DNA of 38,065 nt from a virus, in the IMG/VR virus record IMGVR_UViG_3300028569_000081, positions 1 to 38,065 of that record; one strand, written 5' to 3'. Below the pieces are notes generated by a model. The model saw only the letters and a program-made list of their open reading frames with translations, did no database searches and was not told the origin of the DNA. The position numbers were made by a program, and so were the translations under genes. Shown here one piece after another: positions 9,476 through 38,065 of the stretch; the first letter of the stretch is position 1, and the number at the start of each line of letters is the position of its first letter.

Positions 9476-10119
9476 GGCCCAGCTGCCTTGTGCTCCTGGA
9501 TGCGGCCCCAGACGAACCAGCCCGCGACCAGGACCACGACCAGCGCTGCGACCCCAGGGGCCATGTCCCTCAGGATCGACAGCGCTGGGACCGCGTTGGC
9601 GACCGCATCCGCCAGCGGCTGGATCCCCTGGACGGCGATGCCGGCGGCTCCGACCTTGGCGGCGGCCTGGACGGTCCCGGTCTGGTGGACGGGCACGGGA
9701 GGCAGATCGAAGCCGGCCAGCCGAAGGCCCTGGTCCAGCTCATCTTCCGGCCATTCCCAGTTGCCGCCTTCGTGAGCGGCGATCGCCACGCACAGCTCCC
9801 GCATCACACGGTAGTTCTGCACCTGGATCGGACCTCGGCCGAGCTTTCGTTCCAGGGCGGCGATGTAGGCCTCGGTGTCATTCTCATTCGGAGGGGCGAA
9901 CTTGCCGATGATTTTCCGGACGGTATCGAGCTGATACCGCTCCTTGTAGGTGCGGATCAGCGACGCCAAGGCCCGCCACCCGAACTGACGGGTGGTGAAC
10001 TTGACGAAACCGCCGTCGCCAGGACCTGCCTGACCCTGCCAGTTGTTGGCGGTGTTGAAGCGGATGTTGCCCGGGTTGTTGTTCCGCCAACTCAGCGGTG
10101 GGCGCCTGGTGGTTGCCAT
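9472..10119 (-). CDS. Membrane-anchored phage lysozyme (P5-like)
   Basis: 215 residues; ATG 10119 has AGGAGGG upstream. The N-terminal 100 residues match a phage peptidoglycan hydrolase type seen as structural protein P5: WRNNNPGNIRFNTANNW near residues 10-28, GFVKFTTRQFGWRAL, and KFAPPNENDTEAYI. The C-terminus has a hydrophobic segment (VAALVVVLVAGWFVWG) and a short basic tail, so the enzyme would be membrane-anchored. It sits between holin and spanins and is the likely lysis endolysin; the catalytic residue cannot be named with confidence. A tail anchor could hold it inactive until the holin collapses the membrane potential (inference). Confidence 0.75.
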   Translation of the reverse strand: MATTRRPPLSWRNNNPGNIRFNTANNWQGQAGPGDGGFVKFTTRQFGWRALASLIRTYKERYQLDTVRKIIGKFAPPNENDTEAYIAALERKLGRGPIQVQNYRVMRELCVAIAAHEGGNWEWPEDELDQGLRLAGFDLPPVPVHQTGTVQAAAKVGAAGIAVQGIQPLADAVANAVPALSILRDMAPGVAALVVVLVAGWFVWGRIQEHKAAGP

Positions 10120-19137: not shown

Positions 19138-19147
19138 GGTCGTTCTC

Positions 19148-19600
19148 CTAGAGGTGCTTGACGAAGAGGTATTCGTGGGCCCTGTATCCAAGGCGTTCGA
19201 ACACCGGACGCTTATTGATGTCCATCCTCGTCTTGCTATGGTACGTGATCGAGTTGACGCCAAGTTCCCGCAGAGCTTCTTCCGCCGCCTTGAACATTTT
19301 CCACGCGGCCGTCCCCCTGCGGAACTCCTTCTTGAGGAAGTGGGCGTCATCAGAAGCCATGATCGAGTACTTGTAATGGAGAGGGCGATAGATCAGGTGG
19401 ATGATGTACCCGACCAAGAGACCTTCTTCCCGAGCGGTCAGCACGAAGAGCATGTTCTGCTCCTCAAGCTTGAGATACTGGTCCCAAGCCACGTCGAGCG
19501 GTCGCTCCTCGGGATGGGACGTCACCTCAAGCCAATGCTCGTGGATCAGATCTTTAAGCTCCTCCACGACGTTGCTGAATTTCTCGACGGCGAAGATCAT
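19148..19600 (-). CDS. GNAT-type acetyltransferase
   Basis: 150 residues. The ATG at 19600 has GGAGG five bases upstream and overlaps the dioxygenase stop (TGATG). The sequence follows the GNAT layout: MLFVLTAREEGLLVGYIIHL (strands 2-4), a phosphate-loop-like RRGTAAWKMFKAAEEALRE, then SITYHSKTRMD and PVFERLGYRAHEYLFVKHL, typical of the C-terminal strand pair. Such GNAT genes are common in structural regions of tailed phages. The substrate is unknown. With the neighbouring dioxygenase it may modify a virion protein or a host target. Confidence 0.75.
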   Translation of the reverse strand: MIFAVEKFSNVVEELKDLIHEHWLEVTSHPEERPLDVAWDQYLKLEEQNMLFVLTAREEGLLVGYIIHLIYRPLHYKYSIMASDDAHFLKKEFRRGTAAWKMFKAAEEALRELGVNSITYHSKTRMDINKRPVFERLGYRAHEYLFVKHL

Positions 19601-20494: not shown

Positions 20495-21508
20495 TTAGGC
20501 GACACTGTAGCCGAGGACGGGAATGCCCGCGGCCGCGCCGACAACGTCGGTGAGAGTTGCACTGGTCAGGTCGGGCATGTTGTTCGCATAGGCGTCTGCA
20601 AACGATTGGCCAGAGGTCTGGTTGGTGGCGCCGTTGGAGAGCGCGTTGGCGTTGGACGATCCCCCAGTCCTGGACGACATGAGCAATGACGTACCGACGA
20701 TATTGGTGCAGACCGGAAGAGTCCCCGTGAACTTGATGCCGATCCAGTACCAGCCCTTCCTCAGCACCGTCGGGGTGATCGAGAAGGTCGGGTATCCTGT
20801 GGCGGCGGTGGTTACGCCCGTGTTGTCGACCACCACCGGCGTCCCGGTCGGGCGGCCGTTCTTGTTCATCCAGATCCCGGCCTTGGCTGAGCTTCCCGCA
20901 CCCGCGGTCACCACCCTTATGAAAAGGGAGGTGATCTGGACGTCCTCGGCCACGAAGAACGGATAGAGGTAGATGGTATCGACTGCGCCGATCGCCCCTG
21001 TCGCACCAATGTTCCCATCCCACGCCGGGTAGAACCTGCCTGAGACGTAGCCTGGGTGGGAGGAAAGGACCCCGGAGTCGTCAGACTCCAAAGCCAACAT
21101 CATGGCCCGCAGCGTGGCCTGGTCCCCTTCGGCTGGCTCAGTCTCATTGGTCAATGCCGTGGTCTGGAGCAGAGCTTCCATGAACGACTGCTGAGGGTCG
21201 TCGCTACTGAGAAGCAAAGACTGGACTGCCGACTCGGGGAACAGGTCAGGCTGGTGCGGATCTTCAATGACCAGTGCACCAAGCGTGGACTCTTCAGACA
21301 GATCCTGCCCCACGTCGTCGGTCAGATCCGACAACGTCGAAATGTTCTGGAGCGCCGTGACGTTGGACCCTTGGGCCCCGCCCGTCCGGTTCCAGAGTGC
21401 GATGAAGAGCTGCAGCCAAGGCTGCGTCAGCATCCCGGTCCTGGGATCCACGATCGGCGCGTTGCTGACCGGGAAGCCTTGCTCGTTGTTGGAGGTGTTG
21501 CCGCTCAT
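20495..21508 (-). CDS. Tail/virion structural protein, 337 aa
   Basis: ATG 21508 overlaps the gp10-like gene stop (ATGA). The N-terminal 45 residues (PIVDPRTGMLTQPWLQLFIA) are a motif often seen at the start of phage tail-attached proteins. Residues about 60-150 are acidic and helical. Residues 170-300 form a beta-rich region (TIYLYPFFVAEDVQITSLFI, GWYWIGIKFTG) resembling a jelly-roll receptor-binding or adhesin domain. By position it could be the tail needle or a fibre of the P22-type tail, but no needle coiled coil is seen. An alternative is an adaptor for the tailspike. Confidence 0.6.
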   Translation of the reverse strand: MSGNTSNNEQGFPVSNAPIVDPRTGMLTQPWLQLFIALWNRTGGAQGSNVTALQNISTLSDLTDDVGQDLSEESTLGALVIEDPHQPDLFPESAVQSLLLSSDDPQQSFMEALLQTTALTNETEPAEGDQATLRAMMLALESDDSGVLSSHPGYVSGRFYPAWDGNIGATGAIGAVDTIYLYPFFVAEDVQITSLFIRVVTAGAGSSAKAGIWMNKNGRPTGTPVVVDNTGVTTAATGYPTFSITPTVLRKGWYWIGIKFTGTLPVCTNIVGTSLLMSSRTGGSSNANALSNGATNQTSGQSFADAYANNMPDLTSATLTDVVGAAAGIPVLGYSVA

Positions 21509-22929
21509 GTTGCGCACACCGTAAAATCGACGTACGCGCCGTTGAGAGCAGTGCGATACGGCTGCGACCACGACAGTTCAAACACCCGGTCCCTGGCCAG
21601 GCCAAGGCGACGCCACTGGACTGTCGTGAGAAACTCGCCGATGGCGCCAACGGTCTGTTCGACTGGCGCGCCGAAGCTCTGACCACGAGTGTCGCTCCAC
21701 CGCAGCGCCACCACTGGGGGCTGGGCGGAGATGTCAGACGTGCCGACCTCCATGTCTGCGATGAACTGATTGTAGATCACCCGCTTCGCATCCGACCCGA
21801 GGTGCGGGAAAGACCGGAGGCGCAGAATGGCGTCTCCATCGTCGGTGTAGATCTGGTCGCCCATCTCATAGATGCGACCATTCTCAAAGTCGCCGACGAC
21901 GTGCTTGCCATAGGCGAACGCATGGCAGTTGGAGCGGTGGCGATGCAGTTCGCCATCCGAGTCCATCCACGCGCGTTCGTGCCAAAGGTTCTCCACGCCG
22001 TCGAAGACCCAGGTCTTGTCGGCGGTGGGGAAGGTCAGAACGTAGAAGACGTGGCCGCCACTCTGATACGTGTAGGCCAGAGCGTCATCGACTCGTGTGT
22101 ATGTCGACCACTCAGCCTCGAGGGCGAAGGTCGACACCTTCTGCGGCTCATAGCCGATGGTCCGCATCACGACGGCCTGACCGCGATCGTTCCTGGTCAG
22201 CCACATCAGCGTGGCCCCATCCTTCGCCACGGAATACGGGGCGCAGGTGCCGTGTTCAACGAAGGTGCCGGGCAGGGAGGCGAACGGGAAAGCGTTGTTG
22301 CCAGCGTTGTACCACACCTCGGACGTCTTCTCGCCGATCAACCAAATCTCACGATGCTTGACCATGATGGTAGACAGAAGATCGGGCGCCGCCGTCTTCT
22401 GAGCGTAGTAGAGCGGATCGAAGGTGGTGTTGTTTGACAACGTGGTGTAGAACTGCTTCGTGCCAGGCCGGTTGAACAGCAGGAACGAGTCCAGATACGC
22501 CACGTTAGTGGCGCCATAGAAGGCATCGCTCGTGATCTGGGTGAACGCGTTGGTGGTCAGATCCACGAAATACCCGTTCGGGGAGCTGTCGACGATGGCC
22601 AGAGTAGTCGAGTTGTCCTGCATTCCCACGGGCACGGTGCCAGTGGTCGCAAGCGTCCCGATCAGAGTCATGGCCCAAGAGCTGTTGATGTAGTAGACCT
22701 TGTCACCCACCACTGCGTAGAGCTTGCCATTGGAGGCGAAGTGGAGGCCGCGGACGACGGCGACGTTCGGAGAGACGGCCAGAGTCGCCAAACCCGGAGT
22801 GGTGTAGTGCGTGAACTCCGAAGCCGCGTCCTCTGGGTTCTTCTCCGGGAACAGGTTCACACAACGCTGAGCGTCTGCGATGACGCTCCTCGCCATGTAC
22901 GCCCCGCCCTTGAGAGGAACCTTCGTCAT
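21505..22929 (-). CDS. Packaged-DNA stabilisation protein, P22 gp10-like
   Basis: 474 residues, mostly beta. The N-terminus has the diagnostic pattern KGGAYMARSVIADAQRCVNL followed by FPEK, matching the podovirus gp10 family. Repeated blade-like units follow (LHFASNGKLYAVVGDKVYYI; FENGRIYEMGDQIY), consistent with a beta-propeller-like fold. It plugs the portal-gp4 neck and connects to the spike. It lies three genes after the coat gene in the same order as P22. ATG 22929 lies three bases after the upstream stop, with AAGGG/AAGAG upstream. Confidence 0.8.
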   Translation of the reverse strand: MTKVPLKGGAYMARSVIADAQRCVNLFPEKNPEDAASEFTHYTTPGLATLAVSPNVAVVRGLHFASNGKLYAVVGDKVYYINSSWAMTLIGTLATTGTVPVGMQDNSTTLAIVDSSPNGYFVDLTTNAFTQITSDAFYGATNVAYLDSFLLFNRPGTKQFYTTLSNNTTFDPLYYAQKTAAPDLLSTIMVKHREIWLIGEKTSEVWYNAGNNAFPFASLPGTFVEHGTCAPYSVAKDGATLMWLTRNDRGQAVVMRTIGYEPQKVSTFALEAEWSTYTRVDDALAYTYQSGGHVFYVLTFPTADKTWVFDGVENLWHERAWMDSDGELHRHRSNCHAFAYGKHVVGDFENGRIYEMGDQIYTDDGDAILRLRSFPHLGSDAKRVIYNQFIADMEVGTSDISAQPPVVALRWSDTRGQSFGAPVEQTVGAIGEFLTTVQWRRLGLARDRVFELSWSQPYRTALNGAYVDFTVCAT

Positions 22930-24486: not shown

Positions 24487-25704
24487 TTACAGCGCGTCGG
24501 CCACCACGCACGCCCACTCCGGACGGACCCAGAGGTAGCCGTACAGGATGTCGAGGCGGGTGATGAACTGGTCGGTGCCCACGTTGTAGGCGGTGACCAT
24601 GCGCATCGACACGCCGTCGAAGCTCTCGCGCGCCGCCTCGTGGACCCCCTTCGGCAGCTCCAGATCGGCGGTCGCCATGGTGACGGCCTCCCGGCAGAAG
24701 ACGAAGGACTTGCGATAGGTCGTGGAGGCATTGGCGACCGGGGTCACGGCGGCGCCGTTGGCGGGCGACACGGTGACGGTCTGGTACTGGACCGGCTGAC
24801 CGCCGATGGCGGGAACCAGCGCGGGGTAGATCGGGATCGACGTGGAACCCGCCGGGACGTTGGCGGTCACGACGAACTGGCGCAGCGCACCGGTGGACTG
24901 CTTGGTGATGCGGTTCACGGCGAAGACGCCGGCGATGGTGATCATGTCACCGGCCGTCAGCGTGCCCGCCAGCGCATTCACCACCAGGGCGGAACCGGTC
25001 TGGCCGGCGCCGTTCACGGTGGCCGAGCCGGAGGCCAGCGAACCGGTGGCATGCTTGATGACGGTCTGGTCCTTCATCCAGTCGAAGCCCAGCGCCTGCT
25101 GCATCATGCCCGTGGTGTATTGGCGGCTGATGGCCGGCGCCGGGTTGAAGAGGCCGGCCAGCGAGGCGAGCATGCGGGCCTCGGTGAACGGGTCGTTGAC
25201 CACCTTGCGGTTGCCGGACGGGGCCGAGTTCATGTCCAGCAGGGCGCCGGCCTGCAGGAACGTGGCGGCGACAGGGTTCAGGATGTTGTTGGAACTGTCC
25301 ACGTTGGCGACGTAGTTGGAGATGCCGCCCTCGACGCCCGACATGACGTCCGCGGCCACGGCGCCGCCGATGTTGTTCACGGCCGGGGCCAGGATGCGCT
25401 TGGAGTAGTCGTCCAGCGACATGGTCCGGTCCACCGAGGAGAACGCCACGTCGACGCCCTTCTGGTTGGCGACCACGAGCGTGGTGCTCGGCTCGGTCGT
25501 ATCCTGCACCTGCGCGGCGGGACCCGAGCGGACGACGTAGTCGTTCGGCAGCCGGATGCGGAGGCTGGTGCCGATCTTCGCCCCGGTGTTGGCGAAGGAC
25601 CCATCGTACTGGGTGTCGATGTTCTGGAGGAAGGCGTTCGTGTTCTTCCAGAGCCGCACGGCTTCGCGCGTGATCTGGTTGATCGTCAGCATCGAGTTGG
25701 CCAT
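24487..25704 (-). CDS. Major capsid (coat) protein, P22 gp5-like
   Basis: 405 residues. ATG 25704 has AGGAGCAGGTCAG upstream. The start MANSMLTINQITREAVRLWK and the following KIGTSLRIRLPNDYVV, VDVAFSSVDRTMSLDDYSKR and PAVNNIGGAVAADVM match the P22-type coat family (HK97 fold). A beta-rich insertion (ALVVNALAGTLTAGDMITIA) occupies the place of the telokin-like domain. It lies directly downstream of the scaffold gene. A hairpin follows its stop. Confidence 0.85.
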   Translation of the reverse strand: MANSMLTINQITREAVRLWKNTNAFLQNIDTQYDGSFANTGAKIGTSLRIRLPNDYVVRSGPAAQVQDTTEPSTTLVVANQKGVDVAFSSVDRTMSLDDYSKRILAPAVNNIGGAVAADVMSGVEGGISNYVANVDSSNNILNPVAATFLQAGALLDMNSAPSGNRKVVNDPFTEARMLASLAGLFNPAPAISRQYTTGMMQQALGFDWMKDQTVIKHATGSLASGSATVNGAGQTGSALVVNALAGTLTAGDMITIAGVFAVNRITKQSTGALRQFVVTANVPAGSTSIPIYPALVPAIGGQPVQYQTVTVSPANGAAVTPVANASTTYRKSFVFCREAVTMATADLELPKGVHEAARESFDGVSMRMVTAYNVGTDQFITRLDILYGYLWVRPEWACVVADAL

Positions 25705-25869
25705 CTGACCTGCTCCTATGGTTGGTGACCCCGAGGGGCCGGGCGTGTGAGCGAAGCCAGCTGGAAGATCTGGGGCATCCGGCTGGGGTCGCTTGGCGCC
25801 TGTGACCAAGCCATTTGGAGCAGGCCGATGCTGCAGACTTTACCCGGTCTGCGAGCGGGCAGGCTTACT
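25705..25869 (-). other. 165-base intergenic region with two stem-loops
   Basis: No gene is seen between scaffold and coat. Two inverted repeats occur: GCAGAC/GTCTGC (25833-25838, 25847-25852) and GCTTGG/CCAAGC (25791-25796, 25806-25811). Neither is followed by a T-run. The region ends with the ribosome site AGGAGCAGG for the coat gene. It is long for this compact genome, so it may hold a promoter or mRNA processing site; no clear promoter is seen. Confidence 0.4.
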
Positions 25870-26661
25870 TCAGGCGAGGCGCTTCTTCCGCTCCTCTTCG
25901 AGCTTCTTCTCACGCCACTCCATCCACTCCGCCGTGCTCATCTTCTCCGGGTCGGGTTCGGCGTTGGCCGCACCCTTGACCGGCTTGATCGGCGCCGGCG
26001 CCTTGGAGACCGGGGCGGGCTTCGGCGGCTGGGAGACCTTCGCGGCCACCTTCGACACCTCAACCCCCATCTTCACCGGGCTCATCTTCATGATCTTGTA
26101 GGCGAGATCACGGTCCTTGCCCAGTTCGTAGAGCACCTTGTGACCTTCCCCGGTCTCCAGAGCAGCCTCGATCAGCCCGGGAGTGAGGCCACCGATGTCC
26201 CGATAGTTCTTCAGAACATCTTCGAAATCATTGTAAGCTGCTTTCCCAGCTTCGTACACATCGTTGCACGCCTTGTTGAAGGCTTCGACGCGGACCTTCT
26301 CCTCGGCCTTCTGCTCGGCCAGGCGCTCGATGTCCTTGTCCGTGAGGTTCTTGACCTCCGGGTCGCCGTCCTTCTTCCCGGCCTTCAAGATTTCGAGCTG
26401 GGCTTCCAGCTCTCGGGCCCGTGCCTCGGCCGCCTCCTTCTCGCGGCGCGCATCCCACTTGTCCTTCGTGAGGTCGTCGATCCGCTTCTGGAACCACGGC
26501 TTCTCCTTCTTGCCCTGGCCGTCCGTGTCCTGGCCTTCGGTTTTCGACTCGGTCTCCTGGCCCTCGGTGGACTGGCCGCCCTCCTCGGTGGTTTCGACCT
26601 GACCTTCCACCACCTTCTCCTCGGTGGCCTCGGTCGTGGTCTCTTCCTGGGTCCCGCTCAT
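25870..26661 (-). CDS. Scaffolding protein
   Basis: 263 residues from ATG 26661, with GGAG six bases upstream; an earlier in-frame ATG at 26673 lacks a ribosome site but is possible. The N-terminal 50 residues are Glu/Thr/Gly-rich and probably disordered. The middle is strongly helical and charged (KREKEAAEARARELEAQLE-like coiled coil). The C-terminus is basic and helical (WMEWREKKLEEERKKRLA), the part that in P22 scaffolding binds coat. The gene lies just before the coat gene, as expected. Confidence 0.75.
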   Translation of the reverse strand: MSGTQEETTTEATEEKVVEGQVETTEEGGQSTEGQETESKTEGQDTDGQGKKEKPWFQKRIDDLTKDKWDARREKEAAEARARELEAQLEILKAGKKDGDPEVKNLTDKDIERLAEQKAEEKVRVEAFNKACNDVYEAGKAAYNDFEDVLKNYRDIGGLTPGLIEAALETGEGHKVLYELGKDRDLAYKIMKMSPVKMGVEVSKVAAKVSQPPKPAPVSKAPAPIKPVKGAANAEPDPEKMSTAEWMEWREKKLEEERKKRLA

Positions 26662-26710
26662 GTTCAGCTCCATGGATCATCTTGCCCGGTGTGATGGACC
26701 GCCGGTAGTC

Positions 26711-27039: not shown

Positions 27040-29454
27040 TTACGTGGTGGCCTGGACCTTCATGAACCCGCCGGGGTTCTCGGGATCTGGGATGGTGTGG
27101 GCTCCACCTCGGCCCGAGGCACGAAGATCTGCCACCGGCGTAGAGTCGGGCAGCTTCGTGACGTCCCTCGGCGTGGAGTTGCCAGGATCGCCGAACGGCT
27201 GAGACATGTCTTGGCCGCCGCCCATCGCATTGGCCTGGATCATCTCGTCAGTGAGCTGCGCGCCCTGGCCTGAGAGCTGGGGCTGCTGGATCACGCCGGC
27301 TCCTCCGGCCAAAACCTCGGCGATGGTCTGCTGTACGACCTGGGCAATAGAGTTGGGATCGATCTTGTCGAGGAAGGCCTTGAGACGATCGGTCTCAGCC
27401 TTGAAGACGTCGATCGCCACCTTCTCCAGGTCGATCTTCTGCTCCCCGCTCTTGTCGGCCAGAGCTTGGAGGGCGGCAGCGAGGCTCTGCTTCAGACCCT
27501 CCACCTGCTCCATCATCGCCTGGGTCTCGGGATCCGGTCCTTCGCCCAGTGCCTGCTTCGGCACCATCCTCTTCAGACGCTCTGCCGCTTCATCGGCCAT
27601 CGGGAAGTCACCGGCCTTCATGAGAATGTCGCCGATCAGCTGGGTCAGCTCGGGGCGCTGGGAGATGATCTGCGTGAAGGCGGCGAACGCTTCTTGGCGC
27701 CGAGTGGCGTAGTTCGGACCGACGTCGGCCTGGACTTCGTACCGGCCCACCGACGGATTGAGGACCTTCTGGATGGCGGCCTGCTTGGCAGCCTGCTGTT
27801 GATTGGGCTTCTCGCCCTCCATCAACGCCTGCTTCTGGGCCGGGTCGATCTGAACCTGGCTCTCCGTACCGTCCTCCGACAAGATCCTCAGCACTCGCGG
27901 TGTGTCGTAGATCTTGGGGATCAGGTCGAGGAGGATCTTGCCGGTGAACCGGATGCCAGTGGCGAGGTTGTCGATGTAGTGGTACGTCGCCCGATTGCCC
28001 GTGCGCTGACGCTCTTGGATGGCGATGCCGGTCTTCTCATCGCCCTTGTCACCGAGCGTGGACTCGTACTGGCCAGAGACGGCCATCATCTCCTGGCTAG
28101 CGATCTGCAGGCCTTGCATGTAGGCCTGAGGCATCTGCACCGGGTCCTGCCGACGTGGCGCGTCGAGCTTCCGGCCCTGGTCATCGTAGCCATTGAACGG
28201 CAAGAAGGCGTGATTGACCCGGTTCGCCGACTCGTAGTAGATCTCGTACCCCTCCATCGCTTCGGCGGCGCCGACATACGGCGTCTTGGACTGGAGCGCC
28301 ACATTTTCGACTGCCGAGGAGCTCCAGTAGTTGTACATCCGCTGCGGGTCCTTCAACGCACGGACGTGGCCCTTACGGTCCATCTGCCGTTCGATGACGG
28401 TCTCCTCGCCAATCACACGGACGATGGGGATGTAGATCCCCGGCCAGATCTTGGTCTCCATGACCGTGGAGCCGGCAATCAAGTACCACTCGACGTCGTA
28501 CGTGGTGGCCATGCGCGTGCGAGTCTGCGGGTCGTTCTTGACCTGCTCCACGATGGCGTCGTTCAGCGAAGAGGTTTTGACCACCGTCCGCTGCCCGGTC
28601 TGCGGGTCGACCACAGACAGGAGTTCCTCCTCCCGCTCGACACGGCGGAAGTACTCAGCAATCCTCACATGCTTGTCATCGACCCAGTCGTCCGTCGGCT
28701 CCAGCACCGAGCTGCCTGAGATCTTGTCCTTCCACTTCGGGTGGGCACGCTCGAACTCATCCTTCGGCATGTCCTCGAAGATGAAGGCGTATCGAGCATC
28801 CGAGCCATCGGCCTCAAGGATGTCCGGATCGATGTAGACCGAGAACGGGTCGCGGACACGGCGAATGAAGATTTCCTGGTCGAATGAGTCATCGGACACA
28901 TAGTCCGTGATCACACGCCAGTAGCCGATACCGATCTTCACCTGGAACTCGGTGGCCGTGTCGTAGGCTGTCGAAGCATTGGACTGGTACTCGATGTGGC
29001 GAACCAGACCCTCCAACACCTGGGCGGCCTGGAACGTGGCGCCACCGCCGGTGGCCCGGATCTTCACGGTGGGTTTGTTCTGCTTGCAGTCGTTGATGAT
29101 CATCAGGCAATGCTGCCTGGTCTTGTTGATCGTCAGCGACGGACGCTGGTCCACGTCCCGGGACTTGCGGACATCGTTCGGCCACTGATAGCCGTTGTCC
29201 GAGTCGGCCTCCACGAACTTCAAATCATCCAGGTTCAGCTGGCGGCTGTTGGACTCCCAGTCCTTGCAGACCTTGAACCGATCCTTGGCCTCCTTGAGGA
29301 TCTTGTCGCCCTTCCGCTTGCCGACGGACGTCGTGGCTTCGCGGTCATCCTCCTGCGAGAGATCCTCGTAGGTCGGCGGGGTCTGCACCTCGATCGGCTT
29401 GAACTCGTCGGGGTCCAGGCCGTCGCCCTGCGAGACCGTGGTGTAGCCGCTCAT
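27040..29454 (-). CDS. Portal protein, P22-like
   Basis: 804 residues. ATG 29454 has GGAG nine bases upstream. Matches to the P22 portal family include SRQLNLDDLKFVEADSDN near residue 70, RPSLTINKTRQHCLMIINDC, VRDPFSVYIDPDILEADGSD, and the stem/clip region KTPYVGAAEAMEGYE with ERQRTGNRATYHYIDNL. The C-terminal 200 residues form a helical, coiled-coil-prone barrel and a Gly/Gln-rich tail. It forms the dodecameric ring through which DNA is packaged, binding terminase and gp4. Confidence 0.9.
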   Translation of the reverse strand: MSGYTTVSQGDGLDPDEFKPIEVQTPPTYEDLSQEDDREATTSVGKRKGDKILKEAKDRFKVCKDWESNSRQLNLDDLKFVEADSDNGYQWPNDVRKSRDVDQRPSLTINKTRQHCLMIINDCKQNKPTVKIRATGGGATFQAAQVLEGLVRHIEYQSNASTAYDTATEFQVKIGIGYWRVITDYVSDDSFDQEIFIRRVRDPFSVYIDPDILEADGSDARYAFIFEDMPKDEFERAHPKWKDKISGSSVLEPTDDWVDDKHVRIAEYFRRVEREEELLSVVDPQTGQRTVVKTSSLNDAIVEQVKNDPQTRTRMATTYDVEWYLIAGSTVMETKIWPGIYIPIVRVIGEETVIERQMDRKGHVRALKDPQRMYNYWSSSAVENVALQSKTPYVGAAEAMEGYEIYYESANRVNHAFLPFNGYDDQGRKLDAPRRQDPVQMPQAYMQGLQIASQEMMAVSGQYESTLGDKGDEKTGIAIQERQRTGNRATYHYIDNLATGIRFTGKILLDLIPKIYDTPRVLRILSEDGTESQVQIDPAQKQALMEGEKPNQQQAAKQAAIQKVLNPSVGRYEVQADVGPNYATRRQEAFAAFTQIISQRPELTQLIGDILMKAGDFPMADEAAERLKRMVPKQALGEGPDPETQAMMEQVEGLKQSLAAALQALADKSGEQKIDLEKVAIDVFKAETDRLKAFLDKIDPNSIAQVVQQTIAEVLAGGAGVIQQPQLSGQGAQLTDEMIQANAMGGGQDMSQPFGDPGNSTPRDVTKLPDSTPVADLRASGRGGAHTIPDPENPGGFMKVQATT

Positions 29455-29480: not shown

Positions 29481-30758
29481 TCACGACATCCACGCCCCGC
29501 CCTGGGCGGGCAGCTGGATGGTGACCTTCTTCGGCTTGCCCTGCAGCGGCTTCGGACGGGTCTCTCGCAGTGCGACTGCCAAGTACCGGAAGGCGTCGGC
29601 GCCGTGCGAAGCCCAGTTGTGCAGAGGCGTCTTCTTGAACGTGCCCGCGTCGTCGTCCATCTCGTACTGGTAGTGAGACAGGCACTGCCAACCGTCCTGG
29701 GTGTTCGCCTCATCGAAGACGCAGGACTCGAACACGGTGCGGGCGGCATTGATGCCATCCTCGACACTGATGTTCGGGCAGATCTGCACCTTAAACCCGG
29801 CTTCACGCATCTGCCCTTCGATGGAGAGGGGATGCACGATCGTCTTGGCCTTGGCGTCGTGGGGCAGCCAGTGAGTGTCGTAGACGTATGGCTTGGACTG
29901 CAGGACCTTCATGTAGTGGCCGATGGCCTGCTGATTGTTGGAGTAGTAGTCGATGATCCGACGCTCGTAGCCGATGAGCTGGGCGAACCAGATGGCGGTG
30001 TTGTCCGAACGGCCAAGATCCCAGAACGTGAAGACCGGCTTGCTCGAGTCGTACGGCACCCGGGTCCGGCGCTTCTCCTCAAGAACCTTGCGGATTTCCT
30101 TGGCGTAGATGGCGCCCTGCAGGGTCTGGGTGCACTGACCTTCCCACACATGGAGCCACGTGTCCGGGTCCCGAGCCTTGAGCGTCTCCATCTCACGGCG
30201 GAGCACCTCGGGGAACCACGGATTGTCACGCCATGACACCTCGACAACCATGGACTCGGGCTGCGGGTGCTTAATGAACCTTGCGTAGGTCTCATCAGTC
30301 TCCAGCTCGGGGTTGAAGCTGATCCAGATTTCCGAACCCTCCTTGCGGATGGTGGGGATCAAGATGTCCCAGCTCCTCTTGGACACGTTCACGGCCTCTT
30401 CGACCCAGACGATGTCCACGCCCTCGAAGGACTTCAGCGAGTTGATGTTGTTCCTCAGGCCGGCGAAGACGAACTCGGAGCCGTTCTTGCCGATGATCTT
30501 GGTCTGCTGCACGTCATAGAAGCTCGAGAGGCCGAGGGCCTCAATCTGCTGCTTCAGGAGCTGGTGTACCGACTCAGCAATGGAGTTCTGGAACTCACGA
30601 GCGCAGAGCACTCGGAGCTGGCGGGACGCCGCCATGACCAGCAGAGCCCGAGCAATGCCCCACGACTTAGAGCCTCCTCGTCCGCCGTACAGTACCTTGT
30701 ACCGCTTGGGGACGAAGAGGCATTGAAGCTTCTCGGGGAACTCGGCGGAGACCTTCAT
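29481..30758 (-). CDS. terL: Terminase large subunit
   Basis: 425 residues, a complete ATPase-nuclease. Walker A GGRGGSKS (25-32), Walker B VDIVWVEEA (114-122), the coupling motif SFNP (147-150) and the RNase-H-like nuclease Asp residues, Asp247 in TFWDLG, Asp301 in LPHDAKAK and Asp388 in HGADAF, are all seen. It belongs to the P22/Sf6/PBSX-like group. The ATG at 30758 lies two bases after the stop of a gene from a compositionally different module and lacks a clear ribosome site. No small terminase gene is found in the window. Confidence 0.92.
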   Translation of the reverse strand: MKVSAEFPEKLQCLFVPKRYKVLYGGRGGSKSWGIARALLVMAASRQLRVLCAREFQNSIAESVHQLLKQQIEALGLSSFYDVQQTKIIGKNGSEFVFAGLRNNINSLKSFEGVDIVWVEEAVNVSKRSWDILIPTIRKEGSEIWISFNPELETDETYARFIKHPQPESMVVEVSWRDNPWFPEVLRREMETLKARDPDTWLHVWEGQCTQTLQGAIYAKEIRKVLEEKRRTRVPYDSSKPVFTFWDLGRSDNTAIWFAQLIGYERRIIDYYSNNQQAIGHYMKVLQSKPYVYDTHWLPHDAKAKTIVHPLSIEGQMREAGFKVQICPNISVEDGINAARTVFESCVFDEANTQDGWQCLSHYQYEMDDDAGTFKKTPLHNWASHGADAFRYLAVALRETRPKPLQGKPKKVTIQLPAQGGAWMS

Positions 30759-30760
30759 GA

Positions 30761-31021
30761 TTAAGCGCCCACCAAACGCCCAACGAAAGACGTCTCGGCT
30801 TCCTCGCAGCCGTCGGGCACTGACACCCGCGCGTCAGGGCGCACTTGGATGGCCCAAATCGCGCGGGTGCGCGCCTTGTTCCACAGAATGGGAGGCTCGC
30901 CGGGTATCGGCACTTTCACACCCGCAATCTCGCCAGGCAGAGCATCCGTGACGGCTTTGCCGGCGGCAGCTTCTACCAACGGCCCTTCAAATCCTTGCCA
31001 AACCCAAGGTTCGTCGCTCAT
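30761..31021 (-). CDS. Hypothetical protein at the junction, 86 aa
   Basis: ATG 31021 overlaps the previous stop (ATGA). The protein is not recognised: it is short, with Trp-containing N-terminus (EPWVWQGFEGPL), a Pro-rich middle (PIPGEPPILWNK) and an acidic C-terminus. It lies between the tail module and terminase. If the two modules were joined artificially, the join would fall near its end or just after it. Confidence 0.55.
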   Translation of the reverse strand: MSDEPWVWQGFEGPLVEAAAGKAVTDALPGEIAGVKVPIPGEPPILWNKARTRAIWAIQVRPDARVSVPDGCEEAETSFVGRLVGA

Positions 31022-32304
31022 GTCGGCATCTCCGTGACTAGTTTCTGCAATTCAGCATCGCTGACCGCGTAGGGCAGCACCCGCACATGTCCGACCTCGC
31101 CGAACATCGACACCGTGCCGCTCGCGGTGTTGCCAAGCCGCAGTCTCGTCAGGCCGCTGACAGGGCCACCCGTGACTTCCACAGGCGCGTTGCCATTGAA
31201 GGACGCCGCAATGCGGCCGGAACCATCTATCGTCGCGCCGATACGAAACGGCGTGCCAGCGACGAACGTCCCGGCGGACCCCGTCACGCCAGAGCCCACA
31301 CTGGCGAACCATACCCCTCTCAGATTGTCGGTGCCGAAATCATTGCGGATCAAGAAGCGGTTAACGTCGGTCCCGTCGTCAATTTGCAGCAGCACCGCAT
31401 TTACGGGACTGACCGCCGCCTGCGGCAGCATCGCGGACATGAGCACGGTGGATGTGCCATTCGCGCCAATGCCCAGGCTGGCCAGCGTCGCGCTCACCAG
31501 ATCAGCGCCGCGCGTGCTGGCGGCAGGCGTGCCGACCGCTGGCAAAATGGGCGATGATGTGAAGGGCGCCATTTCCACCTGCGGCCAGCCGATGCGCAGC
31601 GTGCAATCGACCGTCGCGCCACTGGTGATGGTCAACTGCGTAAACGGGCGCATGAAAGCCGTATTCACGTTGCTGAAGGTCGAAGATGTGGACGTGACGG
31701 TGAACCGCTGCCCGGTAAGAGGCGCGTTTGTCGGCACTGGTGTGATGAGCGCGTATTGATCGAGCGCGGCGCTGGCCGAATTGAAGTTCGTGGCGCCGGT
31801 CGGCAGTGAAATGCCCGTCAACGACCCGCCCACTAACCGCAAAAAACAAGAGACCGTCACGATGGCGCCGGGAGCAATGGGGAACTGTGTTAGCGTGTCA
31901 AAGTGGCAGGTTGTAAATGTGGTGGCTTCCGCTGTGCCGTAAACTCGGACATCGACGTAGTTGATGCCGCCCCCGACGCCGGCGCCAACAATCTCCCTCG
32001 TGATGCCGTTGGAGCCGGCTGAAATGCTCCAATTCGTCGGCCCTGTGCCAGGCGTGCCGGCGACCACGCCTTCGCATCGTGGATTGCGCACGAGGTTGGT
32101 CCGCTGCCCCCCGACCAGCAACCGCCGCGCGGTGCCGCCAAAGCGCGGCACATCGGCGACAGCCTCCACCCAGTCCACACCCGTGGGGCCGAGGCTCGTG
32201 GATCGGGACGCAACCTGCGCCCGGGCCAAAGCGAGGGGGCTGCGCAGCATGCCGGCGCCGACCAGCGGCGCGGCGCGATCAGCAGAAAGCCACGGACGCG
32301 ACAT
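31018..32304 (-). CDS. Tail-associated protein with LamG/jelly-roll-like domains, 428 aa
   Basis: Start ATG 32304 overlaps the previous stop (TGATG). After a 65-residue N-terminal region (DWVEAVADVPRFGGTARRLL), the protein is beta-rich. NLVRNPRCEGVVAG-type openings and TFTTCHFDTLTQFPIAPGA suggest a jelly-roll carbohydrate-binding module, and the final 170 residues (NRFLIRNDFGTDNLRGVWFA, RIGATIDGSGRIAASFNGN) resemble a LamG/concanavalin-like domain. It probably binds surface glycans. The exact role is inferred from domain style. Confidence 0.6.
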   Translation of the reverse strand: MSRPWLSADRAAPLVGAGMLRSPLALARAQVASRSTSLGPTGVDWVEAVADVPRFGGTARRLLVGGQRTNLVRNPRCEGVVAGTPGTGPTNWSISAGSNGITREIVGAGVGGGINYVDVRVYGTAEATTFTTCHFDTLTQFPIAPGAIVTVSCFLRLVGGSLTGISLPTGATNFNSASAALDQYALITPVPTNAPLTGQRFTVTSTSSTFSNVNTAFMRPFTQLTITSGATVDCTLRIGWPQVEMAPFTSSPILPAVGTPAASTRGADLVSATLASLGIGANGTSTVLMSAMLPQAAVSPVNAVLLQIDDGTDVNRFLIRNDFGTDNLRGVWFASVGSGVTGSAGTFVAGTPFRIGATIDGSGRIAASFNGNAPVEVTGGPVSGLTRLRLGNTASGTVSMFGEVGHVRVLPYAVSDAELQKLVTEMPT

Positions 32305-32693
32305 CAGAAAATGTGCCGCATGCAGACGGTCAGCGTGCGCGCCGCCGTCTGGTTGGCGGCCGTGGCGCCATCGCCGGCGGCGGCGGTGCGCAGCCACAGA
32401 TATTCGTGGGACGCGATGCGGTTGCCGCCGGCGCCGATTGTCAGGCGGGCAGCAAAGTTGGGGTAGCTCGTCAGTGGCCGCAGACCGTATTCGGCCAGCA
32501 GCGGCACCGCTTGGCCCAAATCGGGCGTGGCGCCGACCAGCGCGGTCAGCAGCGCGCCGTCCATGCTGGCGGGGATCTGCACCCACAGCACCGTCATGGC
32601 CGAGGCCTCGATCGGCGTGCTGGTCACCGATTGCCCGGCCGGGATCGTCACCGTGACGCGGCGCAGGTATCGGTCGAGAAATTCGTCGCTCAT
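32304..32693 (-). CDS. Small structural protein, 129 aa
   Basis: ATG 32693 follows GAGGAGCCCCAG. The sequence begins MSDEFLDRYLRRVTVTIPAG and is beta-rich, with TSTPIEASAMTVLWVQIPAS and RIASHEYLWLRTAAAG. No family is recognised. It is flanked by LamG-like tail proteins and coupled to the next gene, so a tail-fibre accessory or decoration role is possible. Confidence 0.55.
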   Translation of the reverse strand: MSDEFLDRYLRRVTVTIPAGQSVTSTPIEASAMTVLWVQIPASMDGALLTALVGATPDLGQAVPLLAEYGLRPLTSYPNFAARLTIGAGGNRIASHEYLWLRTAAAGDGATAANQTAARTLTVCMRHIF

Positions 32694-32703
32694 CTGGGGC
32701 TCC

Positions 32704-33543
32704 TCAGCTGAAGGCGGCGGCGCGGCGCGCCCAATCGGCGTCCAGCGCCGCAGTGATGCTGGGCAGCCGCCCAGGGATGGCGATGCCGACGCGGTAGATG
32801 CGCATCTGGCGGGCCATCAGCTGGTCGGCCGTGTAGCCGCCGGCCGTCCATTCGGGCGTGCCCGCCGTGATGGCGGTGGCTGACGTGACCTCGGCATTGT
32901 TGGTGCCGCGCGATGCGGTGCCGCTGGTGAACGCGAAGGTGCCGGCGGCGGTGCGGATGCGGAAGCCGGTGCCCCCGGCCTCCCGCCAGAACGCGATCTG
33001 CGCCACCCCGCCCACCGACGATGCCGGCGCAGGGCTGAAAATCAGGTCGTTGAACGCGCCGGCCGCGTCCAGCCGGCGGAACCGCACCTGGTTGGTGCTG
33101 TTCGGATACAGGGTGCGCAGCTGGAACAGCGGGCAGCCGATCAGCACCAGATTGTTGCCCAGCTGCGGCGTGGGCAGCTTCAGGTAGGCCATGACCAGGT
33201 AATTCTGGTCCTGCGCCAGGATTTCCGTCATCACCGCGGCCGGGATCAACAACCCGTTCGCGCCGCGGGTGGTGGCCGCGAAATCCAGGCCGCCGCCGGC
33301 GATGGTGGGCGCCACGCCACCGGACTGCACGGTCAGCGCGGCGTCGGCGCGGCCGGTGATGTCGCGCACCAGCCCGCCGGACACCACCGGCGACCCGCCG
33401 GGATAGGACCAGCCGAACGCAAAATCGGCCAGGAAGCGCCAGGCGCCGGTCTCGTCCGTCTCCAGCAGCCGGTCCCGCACCAAGCGCGGGGCCGATGTCG
33501 GGGCGGTGCCGGTGCCGGCGCGCAGCAGGGTGATGTCCGGCAT
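32704..33543 (-). CDS. Tail fibre-like protein with LamG-type fold, 279 aa
   Basis: ATG 33543 has GGAGCTGACC upstream. Residues 30-110 include AWRFLADFAFGWSYPGGSPV and TRGANGLLIPAAVM. The central part (YLVMAYLKLPTPQLGNNLVL; TNQVRFRRLDAAGAFNDLIF; GGTGFRIRTAAGTFAFTSG) follows the strand order of a LamG/concanavalin-like lectin fold. It would be a receptor-binding or tail decoration protein. It shares style but not clear sequence identity with the 31018-32304 product. Confidence 0.55.
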   Translation of the reverse strand: MPDITLLRAGTGTAPTSAPRLVRDRLLETDETGAWRFLADFAFGWSYPGGSPVVSGGLVRDITGRADAALTVQSGGVAPTIAGGGLDFAATTRGANGLLIPAAVMTEILAQDQNYLVMAYLKLPTPQLGNNLVLIGCPLFQLRTLYPNSTNQVRFRRLDAAGAFNDLIFSPAPASSVGGVAQIAFWREAGGTGFRIRTAAGTFAFTSGTASRGTNNAEVTSATAITAGTPEWTAGGYTADQLMARQMRIYRVGIAIPGRLPSITAALDADWARRAAAFS

Positions 33544-33545
33544 GG

Positions 33546-36185
33546 TCAGCTCCAGCGCGTGCGGTTGAGGGTGGCGGCCATGATCGCGGCGCGGCCGGGC
33601 TCGGAGAGGTGGTTGCCTTCCTCATCATCGCCATTGCCGCCTTCTGGCCCGGCATTGGTGCGGCCCCACAGCGCCGCGGCGGTCATGGATGGCTCGACCA
33701 GGGTGAAATCGGACACCGCGACGAAATCGGCGGTCAGGGCGATGGTCCCGCCGGTGAACCCGATGACGGGCGCATGCTGCCCGCCCCCGCGATGCACCGG
33801 CCCGTCCCAGATCAGCGCGTTGCGGAAAGCCACCATCAGGTGCGGCCCCTGCGCGCAGATCTCCAGGATGGGCGTGGCGGCGCCGGTGGCCGCGGCCACG
33901 CTGCTCACGAAGCGCGGCACCGAGACCACATCGGTGCCGGCCCACACCGTCATCGCGATGTTGCCGCCGGCATCGCGTTCCAGCACCAGCCGGTTGCCCG
34001 GCACGCTGGACAGGGTGCATTCCAGCGTGCCGCCGGTGGCCCAGAATGTGTTGGTGGCGCCGGGGGCCGACCAGCTGCCCGCGAAATCCACGGTCTCGGC
34101 CGGCCAGGTGTAGGGCCAGCTGATGGCGGCGGCCTTCAGCACCTCGCGGAAATAGGTCAGCCGCTCATCCGTGCCCCAGTGCAGCGCGCCCAGCTGGCGG
34201 CCCCAATCGATCAGGCCCAGGTCGCGCATCGCCGCCTCGGACCGCATTAGCCCCGCCATCGAGAGGCGCGCTTCCAGCCCGGCCTTGCTGCCGCGCGATG
34301 CGTGCATGGTGCTGGGCGCGGTGCCGGCGATCAGCGCGATGTCGGGGCGCGGCGACAGGGTGGTGAACGCCTCGATCACCGTGCGCATATTGATCAGCGT
34401 GTCGGTGCTGGCCGGCGCGCCGTGGTTCATGCCGAAGCCCAGGATCACCAGGTGGGGCCGCACGCTGGCGCCGAGCCCGATGTCGGTCAGGTTCAGGCTG
34501 GTGACGTAGGGCAGCCAGGGCAGCGCCGGGTCGCGCGCCCAGGTAACCGTCGTCGGCCCCGGCACGCCCGCCGCATCATCCCAGGTCGTAGCGCCGATCG
34601 CGCGGTTCACCACCACCAGACGGTTCCGCAGGTCGCCGAATTGGGTGCGCAGCGCGCGGCGCAGCAGATGCTCGAACTGGCTGGCCAGCCCCACGCGCTG
34701 GTTCGGGTGGCCCCAGCTGTCCATCATGTAGGCCACCACCGCCGGCGCCTGCGGCGTGGCGGCCTCGATCGCGGCCAGGAAGCGCCGTAGGTGCCGCGCC
34801 GGCACCATATCCTCCAGCGGCTCCAGCCCCGCGAGGTTGTGCGGCAGCACGCGCTTGCGATAGGCGCCGGTCAGCCGGCCGCGGCCGGAACGCGTGCGGA
34901 AATGCACATTCCCGGCATACAGCAGGTCAGGCGCGTTGTAGGGCGCCTCGAAATACAGCGTGTCCAGCCCGGCCGCGTCCGCCGCCGCGTGCGCCTCGGC
35001 GATCATCGCCGACACATCGGTCACGCCATCCTGCGCGATGCCGGGCGCCCAGGCGCGGATATCGTCCGCCGGCACGGCGGCCTGCGCGCCAGCGGCGGTG
35101 GTGGGCACATAGCCCAGCACGCGCGCCACCCCGCCCGCATCGGTATCCACGATCAGCGCGGCATCTCCGGGATTATCCAGCGCGTCGTATCGCGCCACGA
35201 TCGGGAATGGGCTGGCGCTGACATCCAGCGCATCGGCATGCAGGTCGCGCACCTCCACCCGCCCGTCGCGGCGCACGCTGGCCACCACGCGGTCCACGCC
35301 GCTGGCGTCCGGCACGATGATGGCGATCGCCGGGGCGTCCGGCTCGATCGTGTCGAACTGCGCCACCGATCGGTTGACCTGCCGGCGGGTGTCGCCCACG
35401 CGCACCAGCGGGCCGGATGCGGGCTTGCGATATTCGCCCTCATTCAGCGCGCCATAGACCACGCCCAGCGCGCCGGCGGCGCTGTCCGCCATCGCGGTTT
35501 CCAGCTCGGCCAGGGTCTCCCGCAGGATGGCGGCGTTCACCACCGCGTCGGCGGTATTGTCGGCGGCGGCCTGCGCCAGCGCCACCTGCGGCGCGACGGC
35601 GGCGGTGGCGGCGGCGACCGCGGCCGGGGCGGCGGCGGCTTCGGCCACGTTGGTGGCGGTAGCCTCAATCACCGCGAAGGCGATCGACCGCGCCTCATCA
35701 TCCTGAACGCCCACCAGGACCATCCCGTTCGCCGATGTGGCGGCGGCCAGCCGATCGATGCGCCGGGCGGTCAGCGCCTGGCTGTCCGGCGTGGCCAGCA
35801 GCGCGCCATCCTCGGTGACCAGCAGCGGCCCGTCGATTTCGTCGGGCACCACCGTGCTGGGGGCAACATCAAATGACGCCTCAACCGCCGCCTCGCGCGG
35901 GCCGGCACAGGCGGCACGCACCCGCCAGCGGCCGGGCACGTCACCGGGCAGGTCCAGATACCAGCGGCCGGTGCCATCCGCGGTCAGGTCCGCCTGCTCA
36001 TGCAGCACATAGGTGGCAGACCCGGGCCGGCGGATGCCGATTTCCACGCCCGTCGCAGCCACGGCGGCCTGGGTCGCGATGTCGCGCGCCAGCAGCGACA
36101 CGCGCACACCCTGCCCCGACCAGACGCGCGGGCGCGGGAATGCGTTCGGGGCGATCGCCAGGACGATCTCGACGGCAACGGTCAT
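33546..36185 (-). CDS. Large tail protein with SGNH esterase domain, 879 aa
   Basis: Residues 1-115 look like an Ig-like tail-attachment domain (RVSLLARDIATQAAVAATGV, WRVRAACAG). Residues about 180-245 are Ala-rich and helical. The C-terminal half has an SGNH hydrolase pattern: VVAYMMDSWGHPN (Ser near 487), VVNRAIGATTWDD, LVILGFGMNHGAP (about 578-592) and GNHLSEPGRAAIM (His near 856). Between the last two comes a beta-rich lectin-like insertion, CAQGPHLMVAFRNALIWDG. It may deacetylate host surface polysaccharide during adsorption. ATG 36185 has no clear ribosome site. Confidence 0.7.
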   Translation of the reverse strand: MTVAVEIVLAIAPNAFPRPRVWSGQGVRVSLLARDIATQAAVAATGVEIGIRRPGSATYVLHEQADLTADGTGRWYLDLPGDVPGRWRVRAACAGPREAAVEASFDVAPSTVVPDEIDGPLLVTEDGALLATPDSQALTARRIDRLAAATSANGMVLVGVQDDEARSIAFAVIEATATNVAEAAAAPAAVAAATAAVAPQVALAQAAADNTADAVVNAAILRETLAELETAMADSAAGALGVVYGALNEGEYRKPASGPLVRVGDTRRQVNRSVAQFDTIEPDAPAIAIIVPDASGVDRVVASVRRDGRVEVRDLHADALDVSASPFPIVARYDALDNPGDAALIVDTDAGGVARVLGYVPTTAAGAQAAVPADDIRAWAPGIAQDGVTDVSAMIAEAHAAADAAGLDTLYFEAPYNAPDLLYAGNVHFRTRSGRGRLTGAYRKRVLPHNLAGLEPLEDMVPARHLRRFLAAIEAATPQAPAVVAYMMDSWGHPNQRVGLASQFEHLLRRALRTQFGDLRNRLVVVNRAIGATTWDDAAGVPGPTTVTWARDPALPWLPYVTSLNLTDIGLGASVRPHLVILGFGMNHGAPASTDTLINMRTVIEAFTTLSPRPDIALIAGTAPSTMHASRGSKAGLEARLSMAGLMRSEAAMRDLGLIDWGRQLGALHWGTDERLTYFREVLKAAAISWPYTWPAETVDFAGSWSAPGATNTFWATGGTLECTLSSVPGNRLVLERDAGGNIAMTVWAGTDVVSVPRFVSSVAAATGAATPILEICAQGPHLMVAFRNALIWDGPVHRGGGQHAPVIGFTGGTIALTADFVAVSDFTLVEPSMTAAALWGRTNAGPEGGNGDDEEGNHLSEPGRAAIMAATLNRTRWS

Positions 36186-36195
36186 GGCGGCATCG

Positions 36196-36238
36196 TCGCG
36201 CGCGCGCGAGGCGCCCGGCAGGCTGAAGCCCGTCAGCC
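36196..36238 (-). repeat. Alternating CG palindrome and stem-loop in a 54-base gap
   Basis: TCGCGCGCGCGCGA (36196-36209) is self-complementary and purely alternating, a Z-DNA-prone tract. GGCTGA/TCAGCC (36221-36226, 36233-36238) form a 6-bp stem directly after the stop of the 36240-36491 gene. No T-run follows. Confidence 0.5.
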
Positions 36239-36239
36239 G

Positions 36240-36491
36240 CTACCGGCGGGTTTCCATCACATAGATGGATTGCTGCTTGCCCGGGCTGAAATCGACGTTG
36301 GGCACCGCGGTGTTCGATCCGACGACGACCCACAGCGCATAGACCCAGGTGCCGGCCCCTGGCTCATCGATGAAGAAATCGCTGTCGTTGGTCCGCACCC
36401 ACGCCACGAAAAACCACTCGGCCGTGGATGCGTTCTGCCGCATCAGGGCGATGCCGGCATTGCTTGCGAATGTGCTGGTCGGGATTGCCAC
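36240..36491 (-). CDS. Hypothetical tail-module protein, 83 aa
   Basis: The start is GTG 36491, three bases after the previous stop. The protein is beta-rich with aromatic residues: STAEWFFVAWVRTNDSDFFI and TWVYALWVVVGSNTA. The pattern suggests a small beta-sandwich. No family is recognised. It is placed directly after the tail-tip gene, so it probably belongs to the tail fibre assembly. Confidence 0.5.
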   Translation of the reverse strand: MAIPTSTFASNAGIALMRQNASTAEWFFVAWVRTNDSDFFIDEPGAGTWVYALWVVVGSNTAVPNVDFSPGKQQSIYVMETRR

Positions 36492-36494
36492 CGG

Positions 36495-38065
36495 TCAGTC
36501 CCCCCGATCCCCGCCGCCATCGCCGCTATAGTCGGCCGGGCCATTGAACGTCACACCCGTGGTGCGCACCAGGATCAGCGCCCGACCGTCGCCGGCCAGT
36601 GTGATCGTGCGGTGCACCACCTGCCGATGGTCATAACCGGCCCCCGGTCGATCCATGCGGTTCAGGGCGAGCGATGCAGCCGATGACAGCACGCGGGTGA
36701 TCGAATTCGGCGCGATGTCATCCACGGCTGAAAGGCGTGCCGTCGCGCTGATCGGGCCCGCCCAGCCGGAGTAATTGCCGCTGCGGTCACGGCTGCGCAT
36801 CAGCGCCCAGCGCGTCTCGCCCGGCGTCCAGCCCGTGGAAACCCAGAAGTCGCTGCGGCTTTCGCCCACCTTTGCGTAGCTGCCGTTCTGGGTCGCCGCT
36901 TCCCACACCTCCACCAAGTCCAGGTCGCTGGCCGTGTCGTTCGTCCAGCGCCAGCTGGCGCCGCGCTGCACGCCGGTGCCAGTGGGCGATGTGGGCGCGC
37001 CGGGGGCGGTGGTGTCCGCCGCGCCGGCCTGCTGCACCGTGGATGTCCAGGCCGAGGGCGCCAGCCCCGCCAGCGCGCGCACGCGCACATCCAGCTGCTC
37101 GCCCACGCGGACCGGCGCGATCACGAAGCGGGTTGTCCCGGCGGGCACTTGCGCGGCAGACCAAGCGCCGGGGCCGGCGCTGACCCGCCACTGGACCTCG
37201 CTGGCCGTCACGAAGGCGTGGGCGGCGGCGGTCCATGTCACCACCAGGGCCGGCGCCACGGCGCCATCCGCCTGCAGCGCCGTGGTGGCCGCCACCGCCA
37301 GCGATGTGGGGGTCGGGATGGCAACGGGGCTGATCAGCGTGGTGTCGGGTGCGGCGCCGAGTGCGCTGGCATCGTCATGCACCCAGGCATAGGCGGCGGC
37401 ACTTTCCTCGCGCAGCCGCAGCGCGATGGCGCCCGTGTTCGGCTCGAACCGCCAGCCGAGGATGCGCATGGGCTTGTTGGTCCAGCCAAAGGCCGGGACC
37501 GTCACGGACAGCATCTGCCACACGGCAAAGCGGATGCCGGCATAGCGGATCGGCGCCTCGATCATCATCGGCTCCCGCCCGCGCAGCAGCTCGATGCGTG
37601 CCAGGCGCTGTGCGCGCGTCGCGTCGATCGTGGCGGGCAGTTCCAGCTCTCGCCAGATGCGCTCGCCATCCTCGGTCTCGAAGGTGCCGCTGGTGACACC
37701 GGGGAATTCGGCGGGCTGCCAGGACTTGACCGGGTCGATAAAGGTGCCTTTGACCGCGTTGAACAGGTCCTTTCGGCGGCCTTTCGTGGTCAGCCTGACA
37801 TCCCCCGCCAGGTCGGACACGCCCAGGCTGGCGGTGGGCTGGGTATAGGCGCCGCCATACAGGCAATATCGCCCCTGCACATAGGTCAGCGCGCCGGCGC
37901 CGGCGGTCAGCATCTGGCCGAGGATCTGCCGCCGGCTTTGATCGCGCGTGATGGCCATGTCGCAGGTGTAGCGCGCCTGGGTGGTGGTGCCGCCGGCGTC
38001 CAGGTCGACCAGCTCATCCGAGAGGTTGGCGGCGGCGATGAAGGTGGCGGTGTCGATCTCATCCG
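36495..38065 (-). CDS. Tail-tip (J/host-specificity-type) protein, C-terminal part (5' end outside window)
   Basis: The frame is open to the right edge; about 523 codons are visible, and the ATG at 37958 is internal. The visible N-terminal part (EIDTATFIAAANLSDELVDL; ARYTCD) and then QILGQMLTAGAGALTYVQGR and WQMLSVTVPAFGWTNKPMRI fit the siphovirus/GTA-type tail-tip protein family. From about residue 240 of the visible part come two fibronectin-III-like repeats (LVVTWTAAAHAFVTASEVQW; SWRWTNDTASDLDLVEVWE). It recognises the host and closes the tail tube in long-tailed phages. It is out of place next to P22-like neck genes. Confidence 0.75.
   Translation of the reverse strand, partial: DEIDTATFIAAANLSDELVDLDAGGTTTQARYTCDMAITRDQSRRQILGQMLTAGAGALTYVQGRYCLYGGAYTQPTASLGVSDLAGDVRLTTKGRRKDLFNAVKGTFIDPVKSWQPAEFPGVTSGTFETEDGERIWRELELPATIDATRAQRLARIELLRGREPMMIEAPIRYAGIRFAVWQMLSVTVPAFGWTNKPMRILGWRFEPNTGAIALRLREESAAAYAWVHDDASALGAAPDTTLISPVAIPTPTSLAVAATTALQADGAVAPALVVTWTAAAHAFVTASEVQWRVSAGPGAWSAAQVPAGTTRFVIAPVRVGEQLDVRVRALAGLAPSAWTSTVQQAGAADTTAPGAPTSPTGTGVQRGASWRWTNDTASDLDLVEVWEAATQNGSYAKVGESRSDFWVSTGWTPGETRWALMRSRDRSGNYSGWAGPISATARLSAVDDIAPNSITRVLSSAASLALNRMDRPGAGYDHRQVVHRTITLAGDGRALILVRTTGVTFNGPADYSGDGGGDRGD

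Follow-up and report, generated by a model that had tools for sequence, protein, structure and literature searches.

The right end of one viral record raises the question of how genes of a siphovirus-type tail come to stand directly upstream of a P22-type large terminase gene (TerL). The window analysed here is the whole linear IMG/VR record, 38065 bp long and without a terminal repeat. Read on the minus strand from its right end, it carries a fragment of a J-type tail-tip gene, genes encoding proteins of 83, 879, 279, 129, 428 and 86 aa, and TerL; past TerL follow the portal, scaffold, coat, head closure, ejection and tailspike genes. An earlier note had set out two explanations for the change of gene content in front of TerL, a mosaic virus or an assembly join. 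Our analysis favors the mosaic and makes a join exactly at 30760 unlikely, although a join or a recent recombination at about 32.0-32.6 kb keeps part of its weight.

The first 9 kb of the window are occupied by plus-strand genes. Between 2 and 8934 these encode a helicase (phrog_62), a PLP enzyme of the threonine-dehydratase type (phrog_7093), an NTP pyrophosphohydrolase, a protein of the thymidylate-kinase type, a thymidylate synthase (PF00303) and a dCMP deaminase, all clustered; together they resemble a set for nucleotide or thymidine hypermodification, here within a P22-type virus. A circular closure that would place the N-terminus of J at the left end was ruled out, as there is no repeat and the left end is the helicase gene on the opposite strand.

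The P22-type side

Profile searches bore out the P22-type set that the earlier note had described left of the junction. On the minus strand, we found a TerL of 425 aa intact from residue 1 (29481..30758; PF04466, E = 7e-44), the portal (27040..29454; PF16510, E = 3e-163), the head scaffolding protein (25870..26673; phrog_8865, E = 7e-27), the coat protein (24487..25809; PF11651, E = 1e-36, and phrog_283) and the head closure protein of the Hc3, P22 gp10 type (21505..22929; phrog_578, E = 1e-113). The same strand encodes a DNA ejection protein (18328..19350; phrog_598, E = 4e-33), an ejection protein with a lytic transglycosylase domain (13880..16645; phrog_26400, E = 5e-45, and phrog_13449) and a tailspike of the depolymerase type (11481..13877; phrog_4250, E = 1e-14). 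The set had been called complete, but it lacks the small terminase subunit (TerS), for which neither a match nor a motif was found anywhere in the window. A TerS can be recognized from its sequence in 42 of 77 related loci. It directly adjoins TerL in L003, with an ORF that runs into the TerL start, and in the prophages L273-L279.

The TerL protein is 83% and 81% identical to those of the related viruses L002 and L003, and the identity runs evenly at 80-84% along the protein from residue 1. A foreign N-terminus, hinted at by a lower GC3 in codons 1-64, was rejected given this uniform identity. In one of the prophages (L279, 12094-13350), the first 64 TerL residues are 78% identical to those of the window and the remainder 36%, so that this TerL is possibly a recombinant terminase.

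The seam in front of TerL

The upstream stop and the TerL start do lie two bases apart, as had been observed, in the order TAA-TC-ATG at 30763-30756 on the minus strand. Because the end of the 86-aa protein matches its homologues and the similarity of TerL to its relatives begins at its ATG, this seam between the 86-aa gene and TerL (30756..30763) leaves both genes whole and is precise to about 2 nt. The lack of a ribosome site at the terminase start, also pointed out before, carries little weight: the best Shine-Dalgarno match is 4/6 (TGGTGG, at -16), and several neighboring genes do no better.

Assemblers join sequences via shared k-mers. If a P22-type virus had been joined by the assembler to an unrelated siphovirus tail module exactly at 30.76 kb, a shared stretch would have to fit between the 86-aa gene and TerL, but there is no room for one because both genes are intact and unrelated. 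A rough estimate from gene density gives only about 3e-5 for the probability that a random join falls within a few nt of both a gene end and a gene start. There is also no composition break at this position, and relatives carry fibre or LamG-like genes before TerL. On the other hand, TerS is missing at exactly this place, and this is where the neighbors of TerL change relative to L002 and L003. Taken together, we consider an artificial join at this point very improbable. The junction 30-mer occurs in no other IMG/VR record, in a search that may mask near-identical records. In phage mosaics, seams usually coincide with gene borders and even with start codons (PMC3233612); the mosaic hot spots described for alphaproteobacterial podoviruses include the terminase genes (PMC10386132).

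Gene order before the terminase in relatives

Three relatives have fibre or LamG-like genes in this region. In L003, a fibre gene (phrog_4492, E = 6e-26) lies two genes before TerS, in front of TerS-TerL. In L045, the TerL start codon comes 72 nt after the end of a fibre gene (9880 to 9953), with no TerS-like ORF detected between them. In L069, the end of a gene that is LamG-like by eye, and belongs to a PHROG of unknown function, is followed by three small genes and then, 8 nt on, by TerL.

Other genes in this region were noticed in passing. L002 carries a 99-aa gene (947-1246) between TerS and TerL, whose product has a distant relative (34%) in L008, about 8 kb downstream of the TerL start. 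In L045, a 371-aa membrane protein (7199-8314) is encoded immediately ahead of the fibre gene and TerL; it is O-antigen ligase-like by eye and has no PHROG match. A 191-aa protein of unknown function (L069, 1412-1987) is 53-62% conserved upstream of the terminase in L067, L078, L080, L021 and L050, and is possibly a virion appendage of P22-type relatives.

The LamG-like gene and its 86-aa partner

Next to TerL stand an 86-aa gene (30761..31021, minus strand) and a 428-aa LamG-like gene of the tail-fibre type (31018..32304, minus strand; phrog_1419, E = 3e-5). We place the start of the latter at the ATG at 32304, since the listed 522-aa ORF begins too far upstream. The LamG-like identity proposed in the earlier note finds some support in a homologue, L259, which matches Laminin_G_3 with an E-value of 3e-5, just below the cut-off; the window protein itself has no such match. 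It shares 40% identity with L259 (residues 1-417) and 37% with L260 (residues 14-414), and its residues 60-277 are 43% identical to gp49 of Azospirillum phage Cd.

Homologues of the 86-aa protein were found in two genomes of the Rhodovarius order (57-58% identity to G118:C58, 43-44% to G011:C45), both of which are also within a draw of 397 genomes from its family; there were none in 385 genomes of the class and no match in phage or plasmid collections. In both genomes, the LamG-like homologue precedes the 86-aa homologue. The C-termini before the stop read VGRLVGA in the window and in L260, and VGRLVGG in L259. The hosts of this cassette are two prophages in Acetobacteraceae-type genomes, one of them T7-like and short-tailed. 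That prophage, L260, encodes a portal/head-tail adaptor (phrog_332), tail tubular proteins (phrog_394 and phrog_376) and an internal virion protein, and its cassette is placed between the coat region and the endolysin; in L259 the cassette sits after a spike gene. Because the T7-like prophage has the pair, a short-tailed phage can carry it. The LamG-like protein would be a receptor-binding virion appendage, and J an accessory or a passenger. The 86-aa gene was also considered as a candidate TerS and rejected, as its L260 homologue is far from TerL and follows the LamG-like gene.

The tail-tip block

The J-type tail-tip protein claimed for the right end was confirmed. The minus-strand gene at 36495..38063 encodes the C-terminal 522 aa of a J-type tail-tip/baseplate hub protein (PHROG 5616, E = 7e-49; PHROG 31, E = 7e-48); its N-terminus is open at the contig end, and the rest of the J module lies beyond it. 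The fragment is 58-45% identical to proteins in L173, L169, L170, L090 and L089 and matches the T5 hub pb3 weakly (E = 2e-4). It is followed by an 83-aa gene (36240..36491, minus strand) that is also found after J in L170 (47% over 62 aa), and by an 879-aa tail protein gene (33546..36185, minus strand; phrog_17220, E = 4e-6). Residues 4-363 of the 879-aa protein are 40% identical to the product of the gene after J in L173 (phmmer E = 1e-53). This protein had been taken for an SGNH protein, but we obtained no SGNH/GDSL profile match and no Pfam or PDB sequence match for it. Still on the minus strand, a 279-aa gene (32704..33543) has a weak local match in the Azospirillum prophage L083, about 5.4 kb past the J match there, and a 129-aa gene (32304..32693) has no detected homologue. 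Neither the 129-aa nor the 279-aa gene had a homologue in the 249 family genomes searched for each.

In other viruses or prophages, J precedes the 83-aa gene in L170, an 879-aa-like gene in L173 and a LamG homologue in L090. J with these following genes is the native order in J-bearing loci. Single-protein searches of IMG/VR with the J, 879-aa and LamG-like proteins returned no close relatives, and the J relatives were found only through the J alignment. At the DNA level, the right block gave just one match of about 114 bases, to Mycobacterium phages, in the phage collection, which we judged to be due to chance.

The composition break

The GC content right of 30761 had been described as visibly higher, which our data contradict: it stays at 61-62% to about 32.0 kb and reaches 68-73% past that point. 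The GC3 change point is at 32085 (support interval 32079-32540; matched by 0 of 500 permutations). This step between about 0.89-0.92 and 0.76 in GC3 (32079..32540) fits the boundary of the 129-aa and LamG-like genes at 32304, where the stop of the former and the start of the latter overlap as TGATG. In a leave-one-out analysis, the codon usage of the LamG-like and 86-aa genes tends toward that of the P22 side, and that of the 129-aa, 279-aa, 879-aa and J genes toward the other side. The change point and the codon usage thus show that the composition break is not at 30761. Part of the GC step inside the LamG-like gene is natural, because its homologues are also GC-richer at the 5' end (by 0.04-0.05). 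The window therefore has two seams: gene content changes at 30760, with no break in composition, and composition changes at about 32.3 kb.

The second seam is where the main rival to a mosaic applies, namely a chimera, or else a recent recombination, within or close to the LamG-like gene. In its assembly form, a P22-type virus with the order LamG-86 aa-TerL would have been fused at about 32.0-32.6 kb to the tail operon of another virus via shared fibre sequence. The composition step lies here, LamG-type genes recur in unrelated phages and could supply the shared sequence, and J was joined to P22-type genes in no record examined. Precedent was sought in both directions, with PHROG 31 found in 0 of 50 TerL-bearing records and the P22 portal (PF16510) in 0 of 50 J-bearing records; these records are mostly fragments, so the absence is weak evidence. 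Against such a chimera, the TGATG overlap resembles the overlap of the LamG gene with its upstream gene in L259, the LamG-like protein aligns with its homologue from about residue 1, and a LamG-type gene after J is a natural order, as seen in L090. We regard an assembly chimera at this place as rather unlikely, although clearly less so than a join at the terminase start.

A natural mosaic as the preferred reading

The intact flanking genes, the lack of a composition break, the recurrent cassette and the fibre or LamG-like genes before TerL in relatives together favor a real mosaic over a join at 30760. We conclude that the window is probably a fragment of a natural mosaic P22-type podovirus with host-recognition genes directly upstream of TerL. 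The adjacency of the LamG-like gene, the 86-aa gene and TerL is very likely real, and the J block, on balance, seems to belong to the same genome. Several observations speak against a mosaic. TerS is missing, no record examined combines J with P22-type genes, J is truncated at the contig end, and the junction was found in no independent record. The right 5.8 kb are clearly GC-higher, and their nearest relatives differ from the viruses related to the left half; the only visible link between this high-GC block and the P22 side runs via the LamG gene.

In a natural mosaic, host-recognition genes would have been taken up directly upstream of TerL, the usual position of TerS. The inner part would be a mobile cassette (the 428-aa LamG-like and 86-aa genes), and beyond it would lie a block of the siphovirus tail-tip type (J, 83 aa, 879 aa, 279 aa and 129 aa). 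Since a single bacterial order has genomes with relatives of both halves, we infer that phages of related alphaproteobacterial hosts probably recombined, either illegitimately or through short homology. Selection may then have retained only joins at gene boundaries, which would explain why the cassette stops 2 nt before the TerL start, and TerL would be translated by coupling. TerS may be located beyond the contig end.

The same host order invites another explanation, in which recombination of two prophages, or of a prophage remnant, within a bacterial chromosome gave a composite, possibly defective, element rather than a working virus. Relatives of the cassette, J and the P22-type TerL all occur in bacterial genomes of this order; a P22-type TerL with 49-54% identity over most of the protein is present in members of the order in which the cassette and the J homologue L089 are also found. 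The missing TerS would fit as well. However, no integrase match was found among the window ORFs scanned against PHROGs, and the left end carries helicase and nucleotide-metabolism genes, which are typical of lytic phages. A composite prophage is thus a poor candidate, on a par with a join at 30.76 kb.

If the contig represents a real virus, host-recognition modules cross the line between podoviruses and siphoviruses and settle in a P22-type packaging operon. It would also be a case of clean gene-boundary mosaicism with a two-base-exact seam, and would raise the question whether a tail-tip hub can function on a short tail. That this short-tailed P22-type virus employs the siphovirus J block as additional host-recognition machinery, with the block inserted between TerS and TerL, is a tentative idea that we hold to be rather doubtful. 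If the contig is not real, it serves as a warning that metagenome assemblies can fuse unrelated viruses through recurrent fibre cassettes.

Comparison with known systems

The closest known systems on the left side are the P22-type, Lederbergvirus-like records IMGVR_UViG_3300044939_000008 and 3300034118_001268, which have the TerL proteins 83% and 81% identical to that of the window and share DNA-level similarity with it across TerL-portal and part of the head genes. Unlike these two records, the window has no TerS before TerL and carries the LamG-86 aa cassette and the J block there instead. The prophages G011:C45 (T7-like) and G118:C58 have the same two cassette genes, in the same order and with the same C-terminal end, but their neighbors differ, with coat and tail tubular genes in one and a spike gene in the other. 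The tail protein gp49 of Azospirillum phage Cd is similar to the window LamG-like protein over residues 60-277 of the latter, but it is 915 aa long and stands in another gene order. Hubs of the lambda J/T5 pb3 type (PHROG 31 and PHROG 5616; Roseobacter CRP-811, Escherichia WildeMaa) share the J hub domain with the window. In siphovirus tail operons of that type, as in the window, J is followed by appendage genes in the same orientation; in contrast to those operons, the module of the window leads into a P22-type TerL, with the N-terminus of J and any tape-measure genes beyond the contig end.
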